Positions 44,101 through 48,241 of a stretch of DNA of 64,000 nt are shown piece by piece. The stretch is taken from the NCBI RefSeq assembly GCF_026410545.1, contig NZ_JAPMIT010000002.1, positions 620,001 through 684,000 of the forward strand, given 5' to 3'. Position numbers and translations under genes: made by a program. The stretch comes from Microbacterium sp. STN6 (GTDB lineage: Bacteria; Actinomycetota; Actinomycetes; Actinomycetales; Microbacteriaceae). The notes below the pieces were generated by a model. The model searched no databases. It saw only the letters and a program-made list of their open reading frames with translations, and was not told the origin of the DNA. Within the stretch, counting starts at the first letter, position 1. Each line of letters starts with the position of its first letter.

Positions 44101-44587
44101 CCGAGCGTGGCCAGCGGCCCGCGATGAGGGAGGCGTGGTCGGTAACGTCGTCGAGCTCACCGAAGTACGCGAACGTGTCTGCCCCGCTCGAGGCGGCGAT
44201 GGGAAGGGGCGCCGTCACCTGGGTCGGTTGCGAGAACGCGAGCGCCCGTGAATCGGCGGTGCCGGCATCGCCGAGCACGCGCCCGACCGCCTTCTCGAGT
44301 GAGGTTCGCGTGTGTTCCACCGACCCGCTTGGCTTCAGGATGCGCACGTCGAGCGCACTCTGACCGGCATCGAGGGCGGCGAGCGAGCCGCGCACCCCGG
44401 CCCGCTCGCTCGCCGTGACGAGCAATCCGAGCGCGGTCACGAGAGTGCAGGCGACCAAGGCGACCAGCGTGACCGCCACGATCAGCCGCCATTGCGTGCG
44501 CCAGCGGCGCAGCGTAAGACCGACGAGCCAGGAGCGCGGCAGGCGGGGCGCGGCGGCCTCATGGCCCGCCTGCGCCTCTCGTCTCAC
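41162..44587 (-). CDS. Giant FtsX-family ABC permease
   Basis: A 1141-residue permease, the first gene of the minus-strand operon. It has an N-terminal membrane helix (LIVAVTLVALVACTLVTALGLLV), an extracytoplasmic domain up to about 285, and a first FtsX module (VTVVSLLLIVLAVAAMTQMARVYTDARESERRLMRSRGAS). More helices follow, then a second, longer extracytoplasmic region (about 560-960) and a C-terminal FtsX module (VLAAIGFMVHTTQSLRTRRLELGHLRALGLSRRALT). The GTG at 44587 is chosen because GGAGGAG lies 5 nt upstream. It is a distant relative of the adjacent 912-residue permease. It starts divergently from the leucine operon. Confidence 0.88.
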   Translation of the reverse strand: MRREAQAGHEAAAPRLPRSWLVGLTLRRWRTQWRLIVAVTLVALVACTLVTALGLLVTASERAGVRGSLAALDAGQSALDVRILKPSGSVEHTRTSLEKAVGRVLGDAGTADSRALAFSQPTQVTAPLPIAASSGADTFAYFGELDDVTDHASLIAGRWPRSADARGPLPVALPQAAAQVFGLTVGKTVAVANADGTTTTATVVGVYRATDAAGEYWSRDVLHGDGENPVLPRPGSSFGDPIDAFGPLVTAPGGLDEAGIAASVVDVSATPRFQAVTVDQLAPLMARLDSADVDIARYAGNIASGIYYSSSIDTAVSGVVSGLVVTRATVTVVSLLLIVLAVAAMTQMARVYTDARESERRLMRSRGASTRDIVALTAIEAGVIGVVTALAAAPLAALVYRALAAQPPMVAAGMPADAAPTPLTWLSAFGVAALFVLVLLLPLFRARGEAESGADRRQRLSPLMRSGLDVGVLALAVLAYWQLQLYRSPVRGEGELGVDPVLALGPALLLLAGALIAARLIPLVSVLADRLGSRVRGAVLPLAAWEIGRRARRATAAVLLLSLTLAVGTFCLSFLATWKQSQLDQAALAVGAPVRVAADPAEASRQAARLAVGAARAPQPVIHDAGRVAGSDADAGDGGSTGVAVRVLGLTEPARAMLDRGRVGAEGGTRIASTLHASSEGSRRIALPSDASAITARVSVARLDGVTADVRAIVEDVDGLLRTVDFGAVDADGSAYDVSASLIPAGADDAATATEAAGAARPPASAIVGFQAELATTSGESGGSAAKLSITVGDLGVRGAGQASARVLTVGDASPWYATMDGVLSRDVRATPPPPGWQYAIEGELAGGVGARGATVVLAGWEPSTMLRAVVPHAFASSLSLTTGESLTLLVHGRELPIRVAGTAAHIPGAATLAELAGETASAGASSGPSATVVVDEVALARALAQAGVTGTLANEWWVDVPAAHATAYVHAHTQGTDAPAAASAAGLALALQQAPLRVATQAALWLGVIASAVLAAIGFMVHTTQSLRTRRLELGHLRALGLSRRALTALVALEATLLCVLGTVFGVGLGLLLVNLVGPLVAVSPTGAPTVPSVVIATPWAQIGMLALEIAIVLAALVALIAQLQRTVRPAELLREGGEQ

Positions 44588-44655
44588 GTAAGCTCCTCCG
44601 TTCGTCACGCGGCAGCCGTCGCGCACGTGCTTCGAGCATGCTATCGGCAGAGTGC

Positions 44656-44661
44656 TATTCT
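44656..44661 (+). promoter_or_regulatory. -10 element of the leuA leader promoter
   Basis: TATTCT, six bases, then the GTG of the leader peptide at 44668. Transcription would start on the leader peptide itself. Confidence 0.55.
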
Positions 44662-44667
44662 GAATTC

Positions 44668-44712
44668 GTGCTGCACGGTCTGCTCCTCCTTAGCTGCCGC
44701 GACGAGTCCTAA
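44668..44712 (+). CDS. leuA leader peptide (leucine attenuator)
   Basis: A 14-codon reading frame, GTG to TAA, encoding VLHGLLLLSCRDES. Five of 14 residues are leucine, four of them in a row, which is the usual sign of a leucine-sensing leader peptide. It lies 70 nt ahead of leuA, and its 3' end forms one arm of a strong terminator hairpin. If leucyl-tRNA is scarce, the ribosome would stall at the Leu codons and change the RNA folding so that leuA is transcribed. There is no ribosome binding site, and the -10 spacing indicates a leaderless start. Confidence 0.82.
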   Translation: MLHGLLLLSCRDES

Positions 44713-44740
44713 TCCCAGGCCTCCCTCGTCGCGGAGTTTT
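44697..44740 (+). terminator. Attenuator terminator upstream of leuA
   Basis: CCGCGACGAG (44697-44706) pairs perfectly with CTCGTCGCGG (44725-44734), followed by AGTTTT. The left arm lies within the leader peptide codons for CRDE and the right arm is 49 nt before leuA. The 18-nt loop includes the leader stop codon. Confidence 0.85.
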
Positions 44741-44752
44741 GTCGTCGGCTGA

Positions 44753-46555
<1,803 letters not shown>

Positions 46556-47348: not shown

Positions 47349-48160
47349 GCCCCAAGCCATACACGCACCGGGATGCGGTGCCGTTCCGCCCGCTCGACTG
47401 GACCGGCCTCTACCCACCCGCGCTGCCGGCCGGTGCCGTGCCGAACCACGTCGCCATCGTCATGGATGGCAACGGGCGCTGGGCCAACCGGCGGGGCCTG
47501 CCCAGGGTCGAAGGCCACCGGGCGGGGGAGGCGTCGCTTCTCGACGTCGTCGCCGGTGCCGTGCAGATTGGCGTGAAGCACCTGAGCGTCTACGCCTTCT
47601 CGACCGAGAACTGGCGCCGCTCGCCCGACGAGGTGCGCTTTCTCATGGGCTTCAACCGCGACGTGCTGCATCGCCGCCGCGACCAGCTGAACGAGTGGGG
47701 TGTGCGGGTGCGCTGGGCCGGCCGCCGGCCGAAGCTGTGGGCATCGGTCATCAAGGAGCTGCAGTACGCCGAACAGCTCACGGCCGGCAACAGCACCATG
47801 ACGCTCACCATGTGCGTCAACTACGGCGGGCGAGGCGAGATAGCGGATGCCGTTCGCCGCATCGCCGAGGAGGTCGCGGCGGGCCGGCTCAAGCCCTCAG
47901 CCGTCGGGGAGCGCGCCATCCAGAAGCACCTGTATGCGCCGGACCTGCCCGACGTCGACCTGTTCGTGCGCAGCTCGGGGGAGCAGCGCACGAGCAACTT
48001 CATGCTGTGGCAGAGCGCGTACGCCGAGATGGTGTTCCTCGACCGGCTGTGGCCCGATTTCACGCGCGAAGATCTGTGGCACGCCGTCGAGCTCTACGCG
48101 GGCCGCAACCGTCGCTTCGGCGCCGCCGTCGACACCCCCGACGCCCCCCACGTGGGTTGA
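47345..48160 (+). CDS. uppS: Isoprenyl transferase (undecaprenyl diphosphate synthase type)
   Basis: A 271-residue cis-prenyltransferase that makes the polyprenyl diphosphate carrier for cell-wall precursors. It has [28 protein letters not shown] (catalytic Asp41), [17 protein letters not shown], and the C-terminal [26 protein letters not shown]. Its ATG overlaps the recO stop. Its own TGA stop lies inside the first copy of a 30-bp tandem repeat, so the end of the protein (APHVG) is defined by repeat DNA. Confidence 0.94.
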
Positions 48161-48241
48161 GGAGCCGCAAAGCGGCGTCGCGTGGGTTGAGGAGCCGCAA
48201 AGCGGTGTCGCGTGGGTTGAGGAGCCGCAAAGCGGCGTCTC
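48152..48241. repeat. Three tandem copies of a 30-bp repeat after uppS
   Basis: The unit begins GTGGGTTGAGGAGCCGC and continues AAAGCGGCGTCGC. Copies are 48152-48181, 48182-48211 and 48212-48241, differing by one base in copy 2 and one in copy 3. The first copy contains the uppS stop codon. Each copy holds the small palindrome GCCGCAAAGCGGC. Confidence 0.92.

Follow-up and report, generated by a model that had tools for sequence, protein, structure and literature searches.

The LEU element was described 5' of leuA in Actinobacteria by Seliverstov et al. in 2005 (PMC1262725). It combines a leader ORF carrying a run of leucine codons, a pseudoknot, and a base stem between the Leu codons and the Shine-Dalgarno (SD) sequence, and, apart from one transposase match, it was found there before leuA only. 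Its discoverers favoured a protein binder. As related in the same paper, mutations of the leader codons of the Streptomyces coelicolor leuA leader (Craster 1999) had some effect that was inconsistent with classical attenuation. Two leaderless Leu leaders are known from Streptomyces lividans, where RNA-seq of this one species (2021; PMC8079986) revealed leuL1, encoding the peptide MRFGLLLLSCRGEGL before leuA, and leuL2 before leuS. The available text of that report describes leuL1 as transcribed leaderless and without a typical Rho-independent terminator, whereas the leuL2 hairpin is followed by a uridine stretch; its Table 4 contains no leuC or leuB leader.

Further parallels come from other actinobacteria. 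In Corynebacterium glutamicum, leuA is preceded by a putative leader (cg4015) that contains four Leu codons in succession, although the accessible part of PMC4046766 terms it a transcriptional attenuator. The Corynebacterium ilvBNC leaders (PMC10272879; Morbach 2000, cited in PMC4046766) encode branched-chain leader peptides, some of them without a ribosome-binding site, and that of ilvB in C. diphtheriae is reported to be leaderless in the available text of PMC5784534. Unlike the LEU element, the ilvBNC leaders are of the terminator/antiterminator type, with no SD stem described in the accessible sections of PMC10272879. Leaderless regulatory ORFs that sense one amino acid are also represented by the mycobacterial polycysteine short ORFs (Canestrari 2020, as cited in the available text of PMC13236596), but there the amino acid is cysteine and the genes are others.

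Here we analysed a window of 64,000 nucleotides from Microbacterium sp. STN6, corresponding to positions 620001–684000 of contig C2 in a genome of 3.1 Mb (G000). Region 44653–44783 of the window is the published LEU element, with which it shares the Leu-run ORF, the pseudoknot and the base stem between Leu codons and leuA SD (PMC1262725). The element itself is therefore already known, and so, according to the available text on S. lividans leuL1 (PMC8079986), is a leaderless leuA leader; the sequence-only reading of this DNA had singled out the leaderless form as the notable part, and that emphasis no longer stands. Different from the 2005 description are copies before leuC and leuA paralogues, leuB-side variants with Val/Leu/Ile codons, a conserved leaderless promoter and statistical covariation. 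Relative to the literature found, the leuC copy and the Val/Leu/Ile versions that in other families precede a microprotein gene 5' of leuB provisionally appear new: a limited search of the open-licence literature returned no published report of the leuC copy, the leuB-side copy or the microprotein.

The leuA element of the window

The features of the element and its target gene are as follows.

44653..44661, + strand: extended -10 promoter element TGCTATTCT (sequence read)
44668..44712, + strand: leaderless leader ORF VLHGLLLLSCRDES, GTG start, TAA stop (sequence and comparison across elements)
44680..44691, + strand: Leu codon run CTG CTC CTC CTT, the proposed sensor, with strand A within it
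44697..44706, + strand: hairpin left arm CCGCGACGAG, pairing with the right arm
44716..44721, + strand: CAGGCC, the loop's 3' half, proposed to pair with the tail as a pseudoknot
44725..44734, + strand: hairpin right arm CTCGTCGCGG, pairing with the left arm
44737..44740, + strand: TTTT after the hairpin, with AG between; not conserved
44741..44752, + strand: tail GTCGTCGGCTGA (strand D), whose GG and CTG are able to pair with CC and CAG of the loop
44763..44771, + strand: leuA Shine-Dalgarno region GAGGAGGAG (strand E), complementary to 44683–44691
44783..46555, + strand: leuA, 2-isopropylmalate synthase (NCBIfam NF002991, E 4.3e-267; TIGR00970, E 4.9e-253)

The leader ORF with its Leu codon run 5' of leuA, the 10-bp stem, the TTTT and the -10 box 6 nt 5' of the GTG, all pointed out in the sequence-only reading, can be read directly in the window, and the leuA ATG at 44783 lies 48 nt past the stem. 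The -10-like box is TATTCT at 44656–44661, preceded by TG at 44653–44654. The ORF had been thought to end inside the left arm; instead, the arm encodes the Cys-Arg-Asp-Glu part of the peptide and the TAA stop (44710–44712) sits inside the hairpin loop. The hairpin (44697–44734) has 10 of 10 pairs between its arms, and the loop–tail pairing, assessed by eye, amounts to 5 bp with one bulge. In the minimum-energy fold of 44668–44790, the SD region 44763–44771 is paired with the Leu codons, to which it is complementary through strand A (44683–44691). As a whole, this fold is modestly more stable than that of shuffled sequences (z -1.57; 14 of 200 shuffles as stable).

The mRNA 5' end would lie at or adjoining the leader GTG. 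In support of a leaderless leader ORF, the spacing between start codon and -10 box recurs across elements: of 50 anchored elements, 48 have a start codon 6–7 nt past a -10-like sequence (the exceptions are L023 and L029; L037 was not anchored). A TAnnnT motif is present 5–10 nt 5' of the chosen start in all 108 elements of a class-wide set, compared with 5.3% of shuffled upstream sequences, a contrast to be read knowing that the 108 starts were picked from those with a box 4–11 nt upstream and that the shuffles did not repeat this choice. Among the best 80 of 592 named LeuA loci, where the leader search was likewise limited to boxes 4–11 nt upstream, leaders were found in all but 5 of the 80, with a 6–7 nt gap in 74 of the 75 and a TGn-extended -10 in 62 of the 75. 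The S. lividans peptide MRFGLLLLSCRGEGL is also encoded in L060, L065, L071 and L211.

Conservation and covariation of the element

DNA matches to the region were found in 37 of 59 relatives. We studied 51 related loci, 33 before leuA and 18 before leuC, and built the covariance model R1 from these 51 elements. At E 0.001, R1 matched 236 of 246 class genomes and 87 of 92 genera. In a class sample of 30 genomes drawn evenly, of which 4 had no LeuA match at 1e-150, the element preceded 27 of 28 leuA loci. R1 also matched every one of the best 80 of 592 named LeuA loci, headed by Mycetocola, Cryobacterium, Herbiconiux and Agromyces, with at least two of these records apparently also belonging to the R1 building set. 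In Rfam, 44200–45200 gave no match at gathering score; none of the six matches up to E 10 fell on 44653–44783. For the class-wide set, 115 elements were reduced to 108 by removing 2 duplicates and 5 mis-parsed ones (L061, L076, L202, L204 and L214).

Anatomy and conservation of the LEU element are joined by covariation, which the hairpin displays. In 66 class-wide sequences aligned to the model, 98.8% of its cells are paired, both sides changed in 6 of 10 pairs, and none of 500 shuffles reached any of five measures. This first alignment had been obtained by fitting to the model; realigned with plain MAFFT, the 66 sequences yielded identical pairs, with 0.988 paired compared with 0.934 after permutation (0 of 2000 reached it), and pairing dropped to 0.37–0.66 when slid by 1–3 columns. 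Own-versus-swapped hairpin scores (z 14.0, 10.2 and 5.0) were set aside as circular, the arms having been picked by maximising own pairing, and the covariation analyses were relied on instead.

Long-range pairings were evaluated by comparing each element's own partner with swapped ones. In the class-wide set, the loop–tail pseudoknot gave a helix z of 8.6 against 0.4 for the reversed-strand control, and the Leu codons with the downstream SD-holding stretch gave 6.4 against 1.0 (n=108 in both). These permutation tests ignore descent, a problem that thinning merely lessens; in thinned sets the loop–tail z was 7.3 (n=59, control 1.8) and the Leu codon–SD z 5.1 (n=52, control 1.6), and under the strictest thinning they were 3.8 (n=14, control -1.5) and 2.1 (n=11, control 0.7), respectively.

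For the base stem, agreement with the published element comes from the minimum-energy fold of 44668–44790 and from own-versus-swapped scores. A family energy test of Leu codon–SD pairing gave -11.8 kcal/mol for own against -10.1 kcal/mol for swapped partners (0 of 10000 permutations; n=49), and z was 5.7 in the best 80 of 592 named loci, where the reversed control, at z 3.1, likewise lay above chance. The within-genome control was weak: of 14 genomes with both copies, 8 had stronger own than cross Leu–SD pairing, 1 showed a tie and 5 the opposite (p 0.11).

The pseudoknot is conserved class-wide by the loop–tail score, and its likeness to the published one was judged from the text of that paper rather than from the letters of its figure. 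Among the 51 family elements, an energy-based loop–tail test detected no signal (z -0.5), and neither did the loop–tail comparison for leuC elements (z -0.1). The loop–tail signal therefore hinges on the change of both set and measure, since it is seen when contiguous helices are scored in sequences from across the class and not in the family energy test.

Proposed mechanism and alternative explanations

Despite some null or weak controls, the covariation of hairpin, loop–tail pseudoknot and Leu codon–SD stem makes translation attenuation the better model, and we consider it probable (roughly 60%) that 44653–44783 is a LEU element acting by leaderless translation attenuation. These pairings suggest that the hairpin forms the core of a larger structure, closed at its base by a stem between the Leu codons and the leuA SD. 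In the following scheme, where the transcript begins, that the ribosome stalls, that the SD is masked and which way regulation runs are all predictions drawn from sequence. RNA polymerase would start at the GTG or a few bases off, and the ribosome would load on the 5' end and read the Leu codons immediately. With charged tRNA-Leu scarce, the ribosome would stall on CUG-CUC-CUC-CUU and cover the anti-SD strand and the foot of the hairpin, allowing leuA to be translated. With ample Leu-tRNA, it would continue as far as the stop codon within the loop and depart, whereupon three structures could form and hide the SD: the hairpin, the loop–tail pseudoknot and, at the base, the stem between the Leu codons and AGGAGGAG. 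If the codons act as both sensor and lock, their replacement would break both functions, a possible reason for the ambivalent behaviour of the S. coelicolor mutants. The element described in 2005 would then gain a testable mechanism, with leucine sensing and SD masking performed by a single set of codons.

Codon use in the leaders fits such a double role. The Leu codons of 69 leuA leaders comprise 110 CTT, 93 CTC, 55 CTG and 10 others, and a strand that both encodes Leu and pairs with AGGAGG is expected to be rich in CTT and CTC. The leuA gene of the window uses 33 CTG, 10 CTC, 1 TTG and no CTT for Leu, and a neighbouring gene 80 CTC, 49 CTG, 7 CTT, 4 TTG and 3 CTA; judging from the neighbouring gene, CTC is ordinary in this genome and CTT unusual. 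Rare-codon sensing could be an alternative cause of the leader CTT. That the leader acts as an arrest peptide was considered and discarded, since the amino acids following the Leu run change along with the stem (CRDE, CRGE, RRGG, RHGG, CRNE); it is the RNA, not the peptide, that seems constrained.

Classical transcription attenuation would have the hairpin 44697–44734 and the TTTT act as an intrinsic terminator, as in the sequence-only reading, with a stalled ribosome preventing its formation. We regard this as unlikely. Although a perfect GC-rich 10-bp stem and TTTT are present in the window, and attenuation of this uORF type was proposed with reporter data for the Corynebacterium ilvB leader in the available text of PMC10272879, the U-run is not conserved: of 108 elements, 5 have at least five T within 8 nt past the hairpin, among them that of the window with its TTTT, and so do 4 of the best 80 of 592 named loci, none of which has more than 3 T in succession. 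A terminator scan returned 0 sites, and the accessible account of S. lividans leuL1 (PMC8079986) likewise speaks against a typical Rho-independent terminator. With regard to a competing antiterminator hairpin, an energy-based own-versus-swapped comparison of left arm and tail gave z -2.2 in 51 family elements, against z -1.9 for the reversed loop–tail control (negative meaning stronger).

A leader ORF that is conserved although the U-run is not could also reflect Rho-dependent or mixed control, with stalling on or completion of the leader setting Rho access to the leader RNA and an additional layer provided by SD masking. Seliverstov et al. invoked Rho as a suggestion for actinobacterial cys leaders (PMC1262725), but the Leu codon–SD covariation points to translation, and we likewise regard this explanation as unlikely. 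The discoverers' own proposal, in which a regulatory protein (ML1624 orthologues, with a helicase domain) recognises the LEU element and the short ORF would be incidental, draws on a phyletic match (PMC1262725) and accords with the very conserved stem sequence. We nevertheless consider it very unlikely, for the ORF, the start spacing and the codon run recur through the class, and the codons become Val/Leu/Ile beside leuB, a change needless for a protein-binding site.

Extending leaderless translation attenuation to the other copies, we tentatively propose, at a confidence short of even, that the LEU element serves as a sensor of branched-chain amino acids that can be moved and retuned. The sensor codons would be the anti-SD strand, so that synonymous choice matters, which would explain the paradoxical codon mutants; the Microbacteriaceae leuC copy would accompany loss of an IclR-type regulator, and elsewhere a Val/Leu/Ile version would precede a microprotein gene 5' of leuB. 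The spread to leuC and the recoding to Val/Leu/Ile by leuB would then serve as natural experiments on the codons as sensor.

Copies beyond leuA

The genome of the window carries a second element (L002:1500–1634; G000:C2:413150–413283), with 79% identity to the first, before leuC (NCBIfam TIGR00170). Its leader MLFGLLLLSCRDER has a -10-like TATTCT 7 nt 5' of the ATG, followed by hairpin and tail as at leuA. In a family sample of 60 genomes, an element precedes leuC in 42 of the 58 that bear leuC, and none was found before leuC in the remaining 16; in the class sample it does so at 1 of 30 leuC loci, namely that of the window's own genome. An IclR-type gene lies within the leuC locus in 27 of 30 class-sample loci, two of which (L134 and L138) supplied the queries, and at 0 of 18 family leuC loci (11 with the element, 7 without). 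At E 1e-30, no IclR-type relative was detected in any of 30 family genomes, while all 6 controls matched, one of them being the source of the query; G000 and G021 had none even at 1e-10. The IclR-type genes beside leuC are putative orthologues of NdgR (or LtbR). According to the available text of PMC4340878, leucine biosynthesis in Streptomyces is under the control of NdgR, which is of the IclR type. The leuC element may have taken over from such an IclR-type regulator. By eye, the genes 5' of the L002 leuC element are transglutaminase-like and FHA-like, not IclR-type.

In 20 genomes chosen for multiple copies, the model gave 51 hits, of which we examined all except G211:C2:328424. Among these 50 are paralogues of leuA as well as elements on the leuB side, the latter with Val/Leu/Ile codons in their leaders (MRSVFVLIDCRGEA, MRQVLVLITCRGGA, MRFVLILRCRDGA and others). 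In 10 leuB-side leaders, the run comprises 15 V, 17 L and 10 I, so that codon identity seems to follow the pathway; the leuB-side elements gave no codon–SD signal (z -0.1). LeuB was confirmed by NCBIfam NF002898 in all four loci scanned (L068, L064, L084 and L088). In the 30-genome sample, a leuB-side element was present at E <1e-5 in 5 of 30 LeuB-type loci, a count from which two matches to leuA elements on the other strand and one weak match were left out.

Between the leuB-side element and leuB lies a small ORF encoding a conserved microprotein of ~20–43 aa (L075, L068, L113, L088 and others). The motif LQxALDxRDNGG occurs in 28 of 38 microprotein loci, with 22 distinct cores, 24 of the 38 having been retrieved with the microprotein as query. 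As in coding sequence, variability peaks at third codon positions (entropy 0.88, compared with 0.51 and 0.21 at the other positions). Eight of the small ORFs matched no Pfam or NCBIfam family at cut-off. Since leuB seems, by eye, to have a leaderless start of its own, the microprotein is a likelier target of the element than leuB. In genus g76 (L167, L168, L171–L175, L178 and L179), the microprotein occurs without such a leader, and its 5' region is highly conserved around GTCTCAGATAGTAGGAAGTCCGAGTAATTGTAGAGAC, perhaps the operator of a regulator.

Some further matches deserve mention. L221–L225 are family leuA paralogues with an element of their own; upstream of it, a block like ACTTGTCTGAGGAGT is found in L221, L223, L224 and L225, and TGTCTGAGGAGT in L222. 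L226 (G018:C8:146299–146395), a weak model match (E 7.7e-4), lies before what by eye is an MFS-like transporter gene; its leader is MSRGLRLRSRGRA, and its loop and tail could form a pseudoknot. The weak hits L096, L097 and L099 look false. Hits beside leuS (L095, L098 and L100–L102; LeuS assigned by eye) seemingly belong to another, terminator-type leader and were excluded from the counts; by eye, L101 and L102 start with the leuL2 peptide.

A short repeat, GAGGAGCCGC(AA/GC)AGCGGCGT, of which none is expected by chance, is present in 3 tandem copies with a 30-nt period at 48159–48238 of the window, and in 5 copies with a 45-nt period near leuC (L002:941–1140).
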